A stretch of 37,572 nucleotides of DNA, taken from IMG/VR virus record IMGVR_UViG_3300027985_000763, positions 1 to 37,572 of that record. The stretch is one strand, 5' to 3'. How positions within the stretch are numbered: position 1 is the first letter of the stretch; every line of letters starts with the position of its first letter. The position numbers and the translations under genes were made by a program. Source of the DNA: a virus. Shown here in pieces: positions 22,167 to 37,035 of this stretch. A model generated the notes under the pieces. It was not told where the DNA came from. It searched no databases and was given only the letters and a program-made list of their open reading frames with translations.

Positions 22167-22586
22167 TTAAAATTTAATACCGCCATTTATAGTAGCGTTA
22201 TTTCCGACAACTCCAACTCTGTTGCCTTTACGGTTGACGCTTCCACCGGCATCAATCCCGCCGCTGACATAGCCACAGTTCACTGAGCCGCCAGCATTTA
22301 CATTCCCATTAATATCACCACAGTTCACTGAGACGCCAGCGTCAACTTTGCCAGTGATGCTGCCCGAACACTGTAATGCCCCATATGTCTTGACGTTCCC
22401 GTGCACATTGCCATTGACTGTAACAGGAGCTTCGGAATTAATGCTTGCCGTTTCTCCGGAAATAACAACTTCCAAAATTTTACCGGAAGAGTCTCCAGCA
22501 TTGACTTCCTTACCGTCGATAAAAACGCGATCATTTATAACCGTGATATTTGACCCGTGGAAGGTCTTGCCGTTTATTGTAATCAT
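22167..22586 (-). CDS. Bactofilin-like right-handed beta-helix protein
   Basis: 139 aa, GAGGAG site. After a short N-terminal segment (MITINGKTFHGSNITVINDR) the protein consists of repeated 5-8 residue strands: ISGETAS, VTVNGNVHGNV, SGSITGKVDAG, CGDINGNVNAG, CGYVSGGIDAG, NRKGNRVGVVG. This is the stacked-strand pattern of bactofilins/polymer-forming cytoskeletal proteins. Whether it polymerises is unknown. Repeated Cys-Gly pairs are unusual. It lies between the annealing-protein gene and a small gene before ssb. Confidence 0.65.
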   Translation of the reverse strand: MITINGKTFHGSNITVINDRVFIDGKEVNAGDSSGKILEVVISGETASINSEAPVTVNGNVHGNVKTYGALQCSGSITGKVDAGVSVNCGDINGNVNAGGSVNCGYVSGGIDAGGSVNRKGNRVGVVGNNATINGGIKF

Positions 22587-30416: not shown

Positions 30417-31632
30417 TCAGAGACAGATAGAGTTCCTTTTGACCCCAGAGTTTGGCCGCTTTACGCTGTGTTGCGGATCGGTTCGTTCCGGGAAAACTTA
30501 CGGGCTGTATTTTTTGATCCTGTACCTTGCCAACACCATGCCGGGCAAGGGAGTGCTGGTAGCCAAGACCCTTGAAACTCTCCGGGAAAATGTCCTTGAC
30601 CCGCTGAAATCCATTGCGCCAGATTCGGTCTCTTATAAGGATTCTGGGCGGCAAATCCTGATAAGCGGTCATGAGGTCCGGGGAGTTGGGTGTAATGATG
30701 AGCAGAGCAAAAATAAAATCCACGGCGGGACATTGTGGTGGGCGGTTGGGGACGAAGTAGCGCTCTGGCCAAAAACTTTCCTCCAGATGCTGCTTACTCG
30801 GCTTTCGACGCCGGGCGCTAAACTGTACGGATCATGTAACCCTGAAGGCACTCAGCACTGGCTTAAAAAAGAATACATAGACAAGGGCCTCGTCCAGTAT
30901 CACCATTTCAAGCTGTCCGATAACCCAACCTTGCCGCCGGAATACGTTGCCGCGTTGGAGCGCGAGAATACCGGCGTCTATTATGAGCGTTACATTCTGG
31001 GCAAATGGGTAGACGCTGAGGGCCAGATTTACAACATCCCGGAAGAACTTTTTGACCCGGAATGCAGCAAGCGAAAATACCGGCGGTATATCGTCGGCAT
31101 GGATTACGGCACGACAAATCCGATGGTTTTTTTGCTCATCGGGTACAACACGCCGCAGGACATCGCGGTGGTAAAAGAGTATTACTATGACAGCAACGCG
31201 ACCGGCCAGCAGCTGACCAAGACAGACACACAATACGCAGATGATTACGAGGCATGGGCAAAAGAGGCTGGAGTACATATAGACGCAATATATCTTGACC
31301 CGTCAGCCGCAAGTTTCCGGGCGGAATTATACTGCCGCCGTCTGCCGGTTATTCAGGCAGATAACGATGTTGAAAACGGGATAAAGTACGTCATGGGGCT
31401 GTTCGGGAATAGGTATTTGCGGATAAGCCCAGAATGTGTAAATACTTGCCGGGAACACAAGGGGTACGCTTGGGACCCAGAGGCGCAGGCGCGGGGGGAA
31501 GACAAGCCGCTTAAAGCAGATGACCATTCTCCGGATGCCCTGCGGTACGGGGCCTACACTGGGATACGAAACATAGCCCCGATTGCAGATTACGAGACGG
31601 TTGATAGCCGACACAGCAGAGGACCACTTTGA
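30382..31632 (+). CDS. terL: Terminase large subunit
   Basis: 416 aa; GTG start at 30382 (GTG 30403 is an alternative). Walker A GSVRSGKT at residues 32-39; a Walker B-like GDEVAL near 123-127; the RNase-H-like nuclease has GMDYGTT (about 240), YLDPSA (about 305) and DDHSPDALRYG (about 380). Motor that cuts and pumps concatemeric DNA into the capsid; related to Mu-type terminases by gene order. It is followed by a portal starting with TTG in a 4-base overlap. Confidence 0.92.
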   Translation: MEKWQSRVKGLNQRQIEFLLTPEFGRFTLCCGSVRSGKTYGLYFLILYLANTMPGKGVLVAKTLETLRENVLDPLKSIAPDSVSYKDSGRQILISGHEVRGVGCNDEQSKNKIHGGTLWWAVGDEVALWPKTFLQMLLTRLSTPGAKLYGSCNPEGTQHWLKKEYIDKGLVQYHHFKLSDNPTLPPEYVAALERENTGVYYERYILGKWVDAEGQIYNIPEELFDPECSKRKYRRYIVGMDYGTTNPMVFLLIGYNTPQDIAVVKEYYYDSNATGQQLTKTDTQYADDYEAWAKEAGVHIDAIYLDPSAASFRAELYCRRLPVIQADNDVENGIKYVMGLFGNRYLRISPECVNTCREHKGYAWDPEAQARGEDKPLKADDHSPDALRYGAYTGIRNIAPIADYETVDSRHSRGPL

Positions 31633-33179
31633 CACAACTTTTTGATCAATTCGGACGGCCAACTTCAGCCGCAAAAAAACCAGCCCGGAGACCGCTCCCG
31701 GATGCCCCTATCCAGATGTCTGGCCGGGAATATGTTTCGCACGGCCTTACGCCGCAGCGGCTTGCGTCAATTTTCCGCGACGCGGATGCCGGGGACGTGC
31801 GGCGACAAATCGAGCTTTTCACACAGATTGAGGAGCGCGACGGGCATCTTGCGGGAGAGAAAAGCAAGCGGTGCAATGCTGTCCGGGATGTCAATTTCTT
31901 ACTGGAACCCGCGTCTGATGATAAGCGGGACATTAAGATTTATGATTTTGTGCAGGCCTTTTTTGACAGCATGACGGAATGGTCAGACACGCTCGTGTCA
32001 ATGCAGGACGCGATTGGTAAGGGTTTCGCAGCGCTGGAAATCAAGTGGGACGTGTCAACCAAGCAGGCCATGCCGACTGGCTTTGATTTTATTGACCAGC
32101 GGCGGTTTATCTTTTACGGGCGCGACGGGATGCTCCGGCGGTATCCGCTCCTCATAACAGATGACGACCCGGCAGGGATAGATATACCGGCGTGGTCAAT
32201 GATGATGCACATTTACAATGGCATGACAGGCCACCCGACGCGATCCGGACTTTTTAGGGTATCGGCGTGGATGGACATGTTCAAGAATTATTCTGTTAAG
32301 GATTGGCTGGCCCTGATAGAGGTTTACGGGATGCCGGTGCGCCTTGGCAAATATGACATATCGGCGTCACCTGATGATATATCAGCCCTTAAGACAGCCG
32401 TCAGGCGGATAGGCGTTGACGCATCAGGCGTGATTTCAAAAAATACGGAAATAGAATTTGTTGAAACCGTATCGGGAGCGCTCGGAAGCGGTATATATGG
32501 CGACCTTATCCGCTTTTGTGATCGTGAAGTTAGTAAGGCGTGGCTAGGTCATGCACAGGCGGCAGATTCGGGAACGCCCGGATCATACGCGTCTGATAAT
32601 CTTAAAAATGAGGTCCGGCTCGATCTTGTAAAGTCTGATACTTTCGCGATTGCGGCGACGGCGCGTAACCAGCTATTCCGCCCACTTGTCGGATTCAATT
32701 TTGGGTGGGACTCCAAATTACCGTTGTATTATCCGGATTGGGAAGAGTCAGAGGACTTGGTAGCCAAGGCCAACTGGATGACAGCCCTTATGGACCGGGG
32801 TGTCAAAATGCCGTTGACATATGTCCGCAGGGAGTTCTCGATCCCGGATACCGAGGACGGAGAGGAGGAGGTTGGCGGCCTTCCCACAACCCCGATGCCG
32901 AGCGCTGTCCCGGCGACGCCCGTTGCTGCAAAGCAGTTATTGCCGGGGGATAATAGATCGCAAGACTCAGCCGAGGCCGTCGCCAAGAAGGCGCTGGAAG
33001 GCGCGCCGGAAGATTACTGGAAACCGATTGACGACCTTATCCAGACCGCAGAAAGCCTCGAAGAGGTCAAGGACAAGATACTCTCCCTCAAACTGCCAAT
33101 GGACCAGACCGGCGAATATATGGCCCGTGCTATGGCGCTGGCGAACCTGATAGGGCGGTACGATGCCAACAGTAATTGA
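31629..33179 (+). CDS. Portal protein, DUF935 (Mu gp29-like)
   Basis: 516 aa starting at TTG 31629 in TTGA overlap with terL, with AGAGG upstream. LFDQFGRPT at the N-terminus and the family blocks FDFIDQRRFIF, GLFRVSAWMDMFKNYS, DWLALIEVYGMPVRLGKYD and GSYASDNLKNEV are diagnostic for the DUF935 portal family. It forms the dodecameric DNA channel at the unique capsid vertex. Confidence 0.93.
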   Translation: MTQLFDQFGRPTSAAKKPARRPLPDAPIQMSGREYVSHGLTPQRLASIFRDADAGDVRRQIELFTQIEERDGHLAGEKSKRCNAVRDVNFLLEPASDDKRDIKIYDFVQAFFDSMTEWSDTLVSMQDAIGKGFAALEIKWDVSTKQAMPTGFDFIDQRRFIFYGRDGMLRRYPLLITDDDPAGIDIPAWSMMMHIYNGMTGHPTRSGLFRVSAWMDMFKNYSVKDWLALIEVYGMPVRLGKYDISASPDDISALKTAVRRIGVDASGVISKNTEIEFVETVSGALGSGIYGDLIRFCDREVSKAWLGHAQAADSGTPGSYASDNLKNEVRLDLVKSDTFAIAATARNQLFRPLVGFNFGWDSKLPLYYPDWEESEDLVAKANWMTALMDRGVKMPLTYVRREFSIPDTEDGEEEVGGLPTTPMPSAVPATPVAAKQLLPGDNRSQDSAEAVAKKALEGAPEDYWKPIDDLIQTAESLEEVKDKILSLKLPMDQTGEYMARAMALANLIGRYDANSN

Positions 33180-33861
33180 GTCCGCGCTTAACCAGCCCTT
33201 TGATGCGGCCATCGAATTTTTCCGGAAGAAACTCCAGCTTGGCACGACATCATGGCTGGACATCTGGGAAGAGGCCCACAGTGAGGCTTTTGTGGTTTCG
33301 GGAGCGATGCAGAAAGACCTGCTGGCCGATCTCTATGCAGCTATTGACAAGGCGATAAAAGACGGCACGACCCTTTCCGATTTCCGCAAAAGCTTTGCCG
33401 ATACCGTCGCCCGGAATGGATGGGAGTATTACGGCACGATGGCATGGCGGACGGCCTTAATCTACAATACCAACCTGAGTATGGCCTACCATACCGGTCA
33501 TTATCAGGCGATGCTCGATCCTGAAGTTCTGGACGCCCGTCCTTACTGGCGATATGTCGAGTCAAGCAGCCGAAGGCAGCGCCCTGAACATCTAAGATGG
33601 GTTGGCACGGTCTTGCCGGCAACTGATCCGTGGTGGAACACACATGCACCGCCCAACGGATGGAATTGCCGGTGCGGTGTCGTATCCATGTCAGCAAGAG
33701 AGGTGGAAATTTTGGGGAATAAATACCCCGACGTTATCAAAACGCTGGCTCCACCCATAAGATATTACGATTGGAAAAACCCGAAAACCGGAGAGATTAT
33801 CAAAGTCCCGGATGGTATTGATCCGGGGTGGGCTTATCATCCGGGGCTAAAAAGGAGATAA
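33163..33861 (+). CDS. Mu gpF-like head morphogenesis protein
   Basis: 232 aa, overlapping the portal gene by 17 bases. The C-terminal HAPPNGWNCRC motif (two Cys and the conserved Trp) and the preceding segment WGTM-type helices are typical of the Mu F (gp30) / phage head morphogenesis family. Assists head assembly and may be cleaved. Confidence 0.9.
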   Translation: MPTVIESALNQPFDAAIEFFRKKLQLGTTSWLDIWEEAHSEAFVVSGAMQKDLLADLYAAIDKAIKDGTTLSDFRKSFADTVARNGWEYYGTMAWRTALIYNTNLSMAYHTGHYQAMLDPEVLDARPYWRYVESSSRRQRPEHLRWVGTVLPATDPWWNTHAPPNGWNCRCGVVSMSAREVEILGNKYPDVIKTLAPPIRYYDWKNPKTGEIIKVPDGIDPGWAYHPGLKRR

Positions 33862-33865
33862 AAAA

Positions 33866-34024
33866 ATGGAAATGACAGCACATGCAGGCCACAAATTTCT
33901 GAAGTCAACCCCGATGACACGCGGTGAATATAATGAATTCAGGGGCTGGAAAGTCCCGGAAAACGAGAACCCGGACGATGACGGCTTTCTGGTTGAATAC
34001 GAACCGGTGCGCTGGAAGCACTGA
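33866..34024 (+). CDS. Small protein preceding the Tad2-like gene (possible split N-part)
   Basis: 52 aa from ATG 33866 with AAGGAGATAAAAA. The sequence MTRGEYNEFRGWKVPENE then PDDDGFLVEYEP occurs as a conserved block in phage proteins, and the next frame (-1) encodes Tad2-like sequence starting inside its tail. It ends with TGA at 34022-34024, 8 bases before the next ATG. Either a separate protein or one half of a frameshifted gene. Confidence 0.5.
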   Translation: MEMTAHAGHKFLKSTPMTRGEYNEFRGWKVPENENPDDDGFLVEYEPVRWKH

Positions 34025-34032
34025 AGCGAAAA

Positions 34033-34245
34033 ATGAAAGTGGCAAGGACCGGATGGAATGGCAAGGGAATGTATCTTTTTCTGGTGGATATTTTTGAATT
34101 CCACACAGATGCGGATATCGCAGATTTGGGACCGGATGTGCTGGTCCATGAAGCTATCGCCATGAAAACCGCAGATGGTTCAGTCTGTATGGGTTGGCTG
34201 GCAAGTCAGGTGGATATGCTGGCCGAAGACTGGACCGTTGTTTGA
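34033..34245 (+). CDS. DUF2829 / Tad2-like anti-Thoeris protein (possibly truncated at N-terminus)
   Basis: 70 aa from ATG 34033. KVARTGWNGKGMYLFLV, then MKTADGSVCMGWLASQVDMLAEDWTVV, is the DUF2829 signature. Characterised members (Tad2) sequester the Thoeris signal molecule gcADPR and block this defence. Conserved residues GALEALK continue in the same frame upstream of the ATG to about 33997, but no start codon exists there, so the N-terminal helix may be supplied by frameshifting, a start such as CTG, or a sequence error. Inserted between head genes, where it is unusual. Confidence 0.68.
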   Translation: MKVARTGWNGKGMYLFLVDIFEFHTDADIADLGPDVLVHEAIAMKTADGSVCMGWLASQVDMLAEDWTVV

Positions 34246-34248
34246 ACC

Positions 34249-34686
34249 ATGACAGGTAGCACAATCACCGTCAATGCCGATGATCTCATTAAGTCGCTCA
34301 AAGAAGCCCAAAAAAAAATGGCCAACCCGGAACCGATTATGAAAATCTGGGGGCAAGTTATCCGCACGTCGGTAATCCGAAATTTCGAGGTTCAGGGCCG
34401 TCCGAAAAAATGGCGGAAGCTGGCCCCTAAAACGGTCAAGCGGCGTGGGGCGGCAGGTCCGATACTGAGGCGGCAAGGATTCGCCGGGGGGCTGATGGGA
34501 AGCATCAACGTCAAGACTACAGCGTCAAGCGTTTCTGTAGGGACGAATAAAATTTATGCGGCAACACATCAGTTCGGGGACGCGCGGCGAAACATCCCGC
34601 AACGACAGTTTCTCATGATCCAGCGCCCAGTGGATGTAAACGAGATGAAGGCAGCATTGATGAAGTATTTAGGGATAAAAAAATGA
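34249..34686 (+). CDS. Phage virion morphogenesis protein (Mu gpG-like)
   Basis: 145 aa. The N-terminal DDLIKSLKEAQ helix and the C-terminal HQFGDARRNIPQRQFL fit the phage virion morphogenesis (P2 gpS / Mu gpG) family, with the IPxRxF(L) turn as landmark. Acts in tail or connector completion. Position before the protease follows Mu order. Confidence 0.82.
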   Translation: MTGSTITVNADDLIKSLKEAQKKMANPEPIMKIWGQVIRTSVIRNFEVQGRPKKWRKLAPKTVKRRGAAGPILRRQGFAGGLMGSINVKTTASSVSVGTNKIYAATHQFGDARRNIPQRQFLMIQRPVDVNEMKAALMKYLGIKK

Positions 34687-35729
34687 GAGCAAAACTATTA
34701 ATCCTCAAAGCCGCCGGGAAGCTGAACGCCGAAGCCCCGGAGTGGATACAGGTTTTCAGGGCTGGCACGGTCGAAATAGAGGACGGAGAACCGGCGGTCA
34801 TGGACGCGGCAGGCGCAAAAGCTATCATTGATTATTTTGAGCGCCTAAAGCACGACATGGTTGTAGATTATGAGCATCAGACTTTGACAGGGGAACAGTC
34901 TCCTGCGGCTGGCTGGATTCGGGCGCTGGAATGGCGCGGCATTGACGGCCTCTGGGCAAAGGTTGACTGGACCGACAAAGCTGCGGCTTATATCGCGTCT
35001 GGTGAATACCGGTATCACAGCCCGGTTTTTGTGGTCAGGGAAGGCGACCGGAAAATAACAAAACTGTATAACGTGGCGTTGACTAACCAGCCGCGAACAA
35101 TTGGCATTGCTGCATTGGCGGCAAAGAATATCGGAATGGAAATAGAACAGGGAGATGCAAGAATGTTTGAAAAATTGTGTGCGCTTTTGGGCCTTGACCC
35201 GGCGACCGCGACGGAAGATGATGTAACGGCAGCAGTCGAGAAAATGGTGGCAGACATGGCGGCAGCGGCAGAGGCAGCGAAAAACGAGCCTGCCCCGGTT
35301 GCCGCTAAGTCTGTGCTGGCGGCTCTGGACTTGCCTGAAAATGTGACGGTTGAAACTGTCATCGCAAAACTTGAATCTTTTAAAGCCCCGGCCACAGCAG
35401 CGGCCAAGATGTCCGGGGAGCTTATCGCGCTTAAGGCGGAAATAGCAGGTATCAAGGCAAAAGAACTGATCAATACGGCGGTCTCTGAAGGCAAGATTAC
35501 GCCGGACGAACTCGAAAAATGGGGCACTGAACTCGCAAAGAGCAACCCGGAACAGTTCCGGCTTATTGTGCTTTCCCGGCAGCGTGGCAGCATGATCCCT
35601 GTTGATGGCCTTCCGGCGAGTAAAGTAGTGGCCGGGGCGGCGATAACCGATGAAGATATGGAAGTGTGCAAGCAACTCGGCATTTCTCCTGACGACTGGA
35701 AAAAATACAACGGAAAGGCGACGAAATAA
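34683..35729 (+). CDS. Prohead protease (Mu gpI-like), with probable internal scaffold
   Basis: 348 aa, ATGA overlap with upstream gene. The N-terminal half has AIIDYFERLKHDMVVDYEHQ, GWIRAL and the YHSPVF block of the Mu I protease family (catalytic Ser/His region). The C-terminal half is Ala/Glu-rich, as in fused scaffolds. An internal ATG at 35163 has GGGAGA upstream, so a separate scaffold (188 aa) is likely translated from the same frame, as with Mu gpZ. Confidence 0.85.
   Translation: MRAKLLILKAAGKLNAEAPEWIQVFRAGTVEIEDGEPAVMDAAGAKAIIDYFERLKHDMVVDYEHQTLTGEQSPAAGWIRALEWRGIDGLWAKVDWTDKAAAYIASGEYRYHSPVFVVREGDRKITKLYNVALTNQPRTIGIAALAAKNIGMEIEQGDARMFEKLCALLGLDPATATEDDVTAAVEKMVADMAAAAEAAKNEPAPVAAKSVLAALDLPENVTVETVIAKLESFKAPATAAAKMSGELIALKAEIAGIKAKELINTAVSEGKITPDELEKWGTELAKSNPEQFRLIVLSRQRGSMIPVDGLPASKVVAGAAITDEDMEVCKQLGISPDDWKKYNGKATK
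35163..35729 (+). CDS. Internal scaffold protein (Mu gpZ-like, nested in the protease gene)
   Basis: 188 aa from ATG 35163, in the same frame as the protease gene, preceded by GGGAGA at 8-9 bases. Opening MFEKLCALLGLDPATATEDD and an Ala/Glu-rich helical body match capsid scaffolds. Such nested scaffold genes are known for Mu (I/Z) and lambda (C/Nu3). Alternative: only the long product is made. Confidence 0.55.
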   Translation: MFEKLCALLGLDPATATEDDVTAAVEKMVADMAAAAEAAKNEPAPVAAKSVLAALDLPENVTVETVIAKLESFKAPATAAAKMSGELIALKAEIAGIKAKELINTAVSEGKITPDELEKWGTELAKSNPEQFRLIVLSRQRGSMIPVDGLPASKVVAGAAITDEDMEVCKQLGISPDDWKKYNGKATK

Positions 35730-36130
35730 TGGCACAGCGCAAAATCACAGAATCCCCCCTTATCACTTACGGTATCCCGATTGCAGCGGCAACGACAATC
35801 GAGTATGGCCACATCGTGGCGTGTGACGCATCTGGCAACGCGGTCCCGGCGGCAGATACAGCTAGCCTCACGGTTATGGGCGTCGCCGTTAATACGGACC
35901 CAGATGCAATAGACAATTCAGCAGGGGCGGCAGGCGACAAAACCGTGGTTGTCAAACGGGGGCCGTTTGCCTTTGACAACTCCTCCACCAGTCCGGTCAC
36001 GGCAGCGCAGAAGGGCGGCAACTGCTACATTGAGGACTCCGTAACAGTCGCCAGCGCAGGGAGCAACAGTATCGTGGCTGGCAAGGTAATGATGATTGAC
36101 ACCGATGGCGTCTGGGTCAATATCGGATAG
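35729..36130 (+). CDS. Head decoration-like protein (DUF2190-type)
   Basis: 133 aa, starting in a TAATG overlap with the protease stop. Sequence is Ala/Thr/Val-rich, with a PITYG-like opening and repeated short strands (TVVVKRGPFAFD, KVMMIDTDGVWVNIG), as in head-fibre/decoration proteins that sit between protease and capsid genes. Exact family is a resemblance. Confidence 0.65.
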   Translation: MAQRKITESPLITYGIPIAAATTIEYGHIVACDASGNAVPAADTASLTVMGVAVNTDPDAIDNSAGAAGDKTVVVKRGPFAFDNSSTSPVTAAQKGGNCYIEDSVTVASAGSNSIVAGKVMMIDTDGVWVNIG

Positions 36131-36159
36131 GCCTGATGGCCCCATGAAAGGATTTTTTT

Positions 36160-37035
36160 ATGTCTGTCATTAATAATGTAAGCTCGGTTTTCAAGGGCTT
36201 CAACGTCGTCTTTAACGAGGCTTTCAAAACAGCGGAAGCCTTGTGGCCCAAGATTGCGATGGAGACCAAGTCCATGAGCCGGGAGGAGGTTTATCTCTGG
36301 CTCGGAGAGTTCCCGCAAATGCGGGAGTGGGTTGGCGACCGCTTTATTAAAGACCTTGAATCTTTTGAGTATGTTATCAAAAACAAAAAATTCGAGGCGG
36401 CTATCAAGCTCAAGGGCGATGATATAGCTGATAATACTCTTTCCGGATACACCCCCCGCGTGCAGGAAATGGCCCGCAGCGCGAAAAAACACCCGGACAA
36501 GCTGGTATTTCAGGCACTTTCCGCTGGTTTCACATCCCTGTGTTGGGACGGCCAGTATTTTTTTGACACCGATCATCCTGTGGGCGGAACGTCGGTTTCA
36601 AACTTCCAAGGCGGAACCGGGACCGCGTGGTATCTGATGGATTTGTCAAGGTATATCAAGCCTATCGTTTTTCAGACTCGTCAGGCACTCAAAACAACGA
36701 ATCTGGACAAGCCGACGGACGAGCGCGCCTTTATGAGAGACGAATATGTGTACGGAGTAGACGCAAGACACAACGTCGGTTACGGTTTTTGGCAGTTGGC
36801 ATACGCGAGCAAGGAGACTCTTAACGCTACCAATTACGCGGCAGCAAAGGCGGCGTTTGAATCACAGAAGGATTCCGAGGGCGAGCCGTTGGACATCACG
36901 GCGACAACCCTTGTGTACCCGCCGTCCCTTGAAAGCGCAGCCCGGACCCTTATTGAAGCACAGACAGACGCTACCGGAGCCAGTAACATCTGGTATAAAG
37001 ATGTCGAGCTTCTCAAAGTCCAGCGACTTGCATAA
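36160..37035 (+). CDS. Major capsid protein (Mu gpT-like)
   Basis: 291 aa, AAAGGA site. N-terminal AFKTAEALWPKIAMETKSMSREE and YLWLGEFPQMREWVGDR (quoted in part) together with the central FDTDHPVGG turn are typical of the Mu gpT / Mu-like major head protein family, HK97-fold capsid subunits. Length is near that of other members. Confidence 0.9.
   Translation: MSVINNVSSVFKGFNVVFNEAFKTAEALWPKIAMETKSMSREEVYLWLGEFPQMREWVGDRFIKDLESFEYVIKNKKFEAAIKLKGDDIADNTLSGYTPRVQEMARSAKKHPDKLVFQALSAGFTSLCWDGQYFFDTDHPVGGTSVSNFQGGTGTAWYLMDLSRYIKPIVFQTRQALKTTNLDKPTDERAFMRDEYVYGVDARHNVGYGFWQLAYASKETLNATNYAAAKAAFESQKDSEGEPLDITATTLVYPPSLESAARTLIEAQTDATGASNIWYKDVELLKVQRLA

Follow-up and report, generated by a model that had tools for sequence, protein, structure and literature searches.

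A Mu-like head operon carries a Tad2 gene of the two-domain type, probably broken by a deletion

Among described systems, gp49 of Escherichia phage N4 (DUF2829; PHROG 872 type) combines an N-terminal domain with a following Tad2 domain in one uninterrupted gene of 160 aa, next to the gene for the virion RNA polymerase. The Tad2 protein of SPO1 (Gp34.65; PDB 8SME, 8SMF, 8SMG), on the other hand, is a complete single-domain protein, whose structure consists of V-shaped dimers that interlock along helix 1, making this helix the dimer-dimer (tetramer) interface; protomers that belong to different dimers jointly form each ligand pocket, the loops of which follow helix 1 in the sequence (reviewed in PMC12043709). 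Further members of the family, namely AcrIIA7/HgmTad2 (PDB 8KBI, 8KBJ), SptTad2 (8WJD) and ModTad2 (9EIB), are likewise complete genes, some of them with a long cyclic-dinucleotide insertion. A different arrangement is found in IMG/VR locus L326 (IMGVR_UViG_3300007542_003117, positions 1471-2020), where the N-terminal domain and then a sponge are encoded by separate ORFs in direct succession, both of them complete and the sponge belonging to Acb4 (PF13876) rather than to Tad2. The locus that we describe here shares with N4 gp49 the order of an N-terminal domain followed by Tad2, but differs from all of these systems in its state: its two halves are damaged, lie in two frames between the F- and G-like head genes, and include a Tad2 domain that is devoid of the cyclic-dinucleotide insertion and whose helix 1 is severed from any start codon. 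It is most probably a deletion-broken member of the known two-domain Tad2 type, and adds one more locus to the Tad2 family, albeit a broken one in an unusual place.

The window, by which we mean the whole stretch of DNA analyzed, is an entire virus record from IMG/VR (37,572 bases) and contains a Mu-like head module (Table 1). The F stop (33861) and the G start (34249) are separated by 387 bases that hold two ORFs of 52 and 70 aa. In related head modules, F and G are either adjacent or overlapping (Chromohalobacter phage YPCBV-1, Pseudomonas phage Fc02, Stenotrophomonas phage Bhz63, and loci L128, L129 and L133), or are separated by a short, unrelated ORF (e.g., Vibrio phage vB-Vv-ZX4290, HS6 and B3). 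None of the relatives had Tad2 between F and G, and neither Tad2 nor the N-terminal domain was present, within the stretches fetched, in any of 40 further head modules located via their portal proteins; in one relative (L087), Tad2 occupies a different site, ahead of a related terminase. The preliminary description had viewed the two ORFs as a cassette that had been added between F and G, and its absence from the comparable F-G junctions examined bears this out: As far as sampled, the cassette is a lineage-specific insertion. The F protein of the window has 232 aa, whereas most F proteins of the Mu-like relatives fetched have about 400 aa or more and a C-terminal extension, and several Mu-like head modules (among L140-L150) have the order portal-G-F-protease, the reverse of that in the window. 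Elsewhere in the record, a 139-aa ORF on the minus strand (22167-22586) has a sub-threshold match to bactofilin (PF04519; 19.7 bits, cut-off 27.9), which is unusual in a phage.

Table 1. Coordinates of the split gene, its signals and the surrounding head genes in the window.
Feature	Position	Strand	Evidence and remarks
Mu-like head module	31629-37035		Portal, F, G, protease, gpT
Portal	31629-33179		PF06074
Mu F-like minor head gene, 232 aa	33163-33861	+	PF04233, E 7e-18; PHROG 220; upstream neighbor
Shine-Dalgarno-like AAGGAG within last F codons, serving ATG 33866	33849-33858	+	Sequence; anti-SD duplex
52-aa ORF, N-terminal domain of PHROG 872/N4 gp49-type protein	33866-34024	+	PHROG 872; tblastn; intact homologs
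Deletion junction; anchor points 8 bases apart (81-120 in intact homologs)	34001-34008	+	Anchor spacing; codon alignment
Tad2 (PF11195, DUF2829) domain frame, including start of helix 1 (GALEALK)	34003-34242	+	79 bits; AlphaFold; Foldseek
70-aa ORF, Tad2 core without helix 1	34033-34245	+	ATG 8 bases past TGA of 52-aa ORF; weak SD
Mu G-like virion morphogenesis gene	34249-34686	+	PF05069, E 3e-18; downstream neighbor
Protease	34683-35729		PF10123
gpT major head gene	36160-37035		PF10124

The back half of the cassette lies in an open stretch (33997-34245) that is in the -1 frame relative to the 52-aa ORF and reads IRTGALEALKRKMKVARTGWNGKGMYLFLV...TADGSVCMGWLASQVDMLAEDWTVV. A Pfam search of the whole record placed PF11195 at 34009-34242, and the frame scores 79 bits (E 3.8e-22; cut-off 25) with its upstream residues as opposed to 68 bits from ATG 34033 alone, a match far beyond chance. 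The first ATG, GTG or TTG of this frame is ATG 34033, downstream of GALEALKRK, and the rise in score confirms, along with the presence of a Tad2/DUF2829-like domain, the earlier suggestion that the GALEALK residues ahead of the sole ATG are part of that domain. A Tad2 fold was predicted by AlphaFold for the 80-aa frame (pLDDT 89), and all 24 PDB matches that Foldseek returned for this model at E <= 0.001 were Tad2 or AcrIIA7: SptTad2 was the best fold match, the SPO1 protein shared the fold over the 80-aa frame (E ~1e-5; 42-46% identity where aligned), and AcrIIA7/HgmTad2 and ModTad2 were relatives by both sequence and fold. Because the family also includes AcrIIA7 and cyclic-dinucleotide binders, any anti-Thoeris label for the window copy should be read as putative.

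The front half has a start of its own: At ATG 33866, the anti-SD duplex reaches -8.7 kcal/mol, against a median of -2.9 kcal/mol at random sites. The 52-aa ORF matches positions 12-58 of PHROG 872 (E 1.1e-11; length 172), the same PHROG whose positions 94-171 are matched by the Tad2 frame (E 1.3e-21), and the two are therefore halves of one protein family. By tblastn, the 52-aa ORF has matches in 117 phage records, and in cultured phages (among them N4, with its gp49, and the Escherichia phages IME10, Louie and Huey) a single uninterrupted match runs across both parts and the linker. (The two-domain homologs in Louie and Huey carry the annotation "anti-CRISPR protein", a label probably inherited from the name AcrIIA7.) Both parts occur in 41 IMG/VR loci; 39 of these have them in the same frame, with fixed anchor points that lie 81, 108, 111 or 120 bases apart, and the remaining two are distant, unrelated pairs. 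The preliminary description had listed a fused gene, with the 52-aa ORF as its front part, among its options and had suggested that an equivalent segment be sought in fused form; such fusions exist, N4 gp49 being one of them.

What separates the window copy from these genes is a missing segment rather than a misread base. Aligned by codons with two of its close relatives that are intact (L186 and L180), the locus is short of one continuous block of 73 bases, although both the breakpoints and the length (73 or, e.g., 103) depend on the linker type of the parent; because 73 is not a multiple of three, the reading frame is shifted. The lost block encodes the SWSP-F motif and MTFG, with which Tad2 helix 1 begins. 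The SWSP-F segment is kept in all 37 distinct tails of N-domain homologs (36 by search pattern, one as AWSP) and is absent from the window locus in all three frames, where the 52-aa ORF ends in GFLVEYE, followed by six out-of-register residues and TGA. As modeled by AlphaFold for an intact relative, the lost segment corresponds to a strand (residues 48-52) and a helix (53-59), both missing from the 52-aa product, and Tad2 helix 1 spans residues 68-76. Since the N-terminal domain is thereby deprived of its final strand and helix, and Tad2 helix 1 of its beginning, both halves are damaged, and no single-base correction restores either. Hence the idea of a simple frameshift that resequencing of 33990-34035 might cancel does not hold.

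The two frames overlap by 28 bases and the shift required to join them is -1, such that programmed ribosomal frameshifting might be invoked to fuse them. The stretch 33985-34024, which covers the overlap, contains no slippery heptamer of the form X XXY YYZ, and a fused product would still be devoid of the linker that is conserved in all intact homologs, making this reading extremely improbable. We also consider it very unlikely that the phage does carry the 73 bases and that a metagenome or draft assembly dropped them. Only one IMG/VR record represents the window, and neither phage records nor an exact-pattern search of viral contigs yielded a near-identical, independent copy of the region; base-calling error, however, cannot drop 73 bases, and both flanks as well as the entire head operon read normally.

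Instead, we think it quite likely that the locus is the remnant of a two-domain anti-defense gene that was inserted between F and G and was later broken by the loss of about 73 bases, although no near-identical intact copy turned up that would prove the deletion directly. The parent, presumably functional, would have resembled N4 gp49, with a PHROG-872 N-terminal domain joined to a Tad2 immune-signal sponge domain, and the later loss would have taken away the tail of the first domain and the front of the second and thrown the latter out of frame. Translation that begins at 33866 would then produce a truncated domain of 52 aa, with a stop at 34024, and the Tad2 core would be obtainable only through re-initiation at ATG 34033, without helix 1. 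Decay is thus the best fit among the three options originally offered, the others being a frameshifted fusion and the use of CTG as a start.

Tad2 helix 1 (FGxA...LKxG) is present in all 53 other aligned Tad2 homologs (F in 98%, G in 94%, K in 96% and G10 in 96%) and in every solved Tad2 structure that sequence searches retrieved. In the window, its F and G columns are missing, G10 is replaced by K, and no ATG, GTG or TTG precedes the helix, so that the copy is probably without the tetramer helix. The preliminary description had named as evidence against itself the case that homologs begin exactly at the equivalent of ATG 34033 and have no GALEALK helix; none start there, and all those aligned keep the helix. 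Because Tad2 dimers interlock along helix 1 and the pockets form between dimers, the 70-aa product from ATG 34033 is probably not a working sponge. Annotation pipelines would label this ORF anti-Thoeris, though the tetramer helix is probably missing.

It is nonetheless conceivable, if unlikely, that the gene still functions, with re-initiation at ATG 34033 (or at a CTG) yielding a short, signal-binding Tad2 that acts by itself or joined by the 52-aa peptide as a second chain. ATG 34033 is only 8 bases past the preceding stop, the core is intact, the pocket loops lie beyond the missing helix, and L326 sets a precedent for separate N-domain and sponge ORFs, though there both are complete. On the other side stand the ubiquity of helix 1 and its role in joining dimers, the damage to the 52-aa product, which as a second chain would be without its last strand and helix, and the weak initiation signals: Anti-SD energies are -3.3 kcal/mol at ATG 34033, -3.0 at CTG 34012 and -3.3 at CTG 34021, all close to the random-site median, and the proposed CTG start accordingly finds no ribosome-binding support at either codon.

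The state of the Tad2 core also has to be reconciled with a remnant. Its invariant residues (R15, GWNGKGM, W65, S68, Q69, D71 and D76; alignment of 54 sequences) are all kept, no stop interrupts the core, and with a leave-one-out score of 104 (mean, 110) it ranks 35 of 54, on a par with its relatives. This intactness speaks against a wreck and looks as would a gene still in use; because the core is as conserved as in its relatives, either the gene was broken recently or its core remains in use, and we favor the former. Under the deletion scenario, the remnant ORFs may still carry ribosomes from F into G by translational coupling: The successive stop-start gaps from F to 33866, to 34033 and to G amount to 4, 8 and 3 bases, and the G ATG, 3 bases past the Tad2 stop, has no SD of its own (-3.0 kcal/mol). 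Judging from this spacing, such passage could be a reason why the remnant has stayed open.

The main value of the locus lies in the N-terminal domain, which came to light through the missing half of the gene and which stands in front of three unrelated sponge families. The domain (approximately 62-72 aa) has neither a Pfam match nor a PDB match of its own, and its consensus is GTKxIxAxPMTRGEYNxxRGWxxPxxENPxDxGYLVEYxDG..SWSPKxxFExAY. When fusions were traced by similarity of the N-terminal domain itself, 224 distinct C-terminal tails were classified by local models as Tad2 (178), crAss001_48 (PF21825; 22), Phage_gp49_66 (PF13876; 11), Tad1 (9) or other (4); Pfam gave 54, 10, 7 and 4 on a 76-tail subset. 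Sampling began from queries linked to Tad2, Acb4 and PF21825, which biases these proportions and, to a lesser degree, the range of partners. PF13876 corresponds to the Acb4 family of sponges (PMC11722364), tails were assigned to Tad1 through a match to the solved structure 8KBB (E 7e-17), and Tad2, Tad1 and Acb4 are structurally unrelated according to a published study. Since the N-terminal domain is fused to these three unrelated sponge families as well as to the uncharacterized family PF21825, its distribution suggests a general sponge-associated domain. A description of the shared domain was not found in the literature searched, in which subscription papers were mostly outside coverage, and a search of 398 genomes from the phylum of the genome of L129 (recorded as Ralstonia), run without a positive control, gave no match.

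The association also extends to gene neighborhoods: At least two of Tad2, Acb4 and PF21825 occur together in 57 of the loci of about 3 kb that we fetched, 40 of which combine Acb4 with Tad2, in what looks like clusters of counter-defense genes. Profile comparison of the PF21825 tails with the Tad1 hairpin detected no relation. With slightly more doubt than confidence, we propose that the N-terminal domain is a general companion of sponges, such that PF21825 would be an unrecognized sponge or another anti-defense domain. If the N-terminal domain does serve counter-defense, it offers a search handle for unknown sponges, with PF21825 first in line. In three loci (L251, L260 and L261), the domain is fused to yet another, unclassified tail, which bears the motif AW[AS]WHCNIAM.
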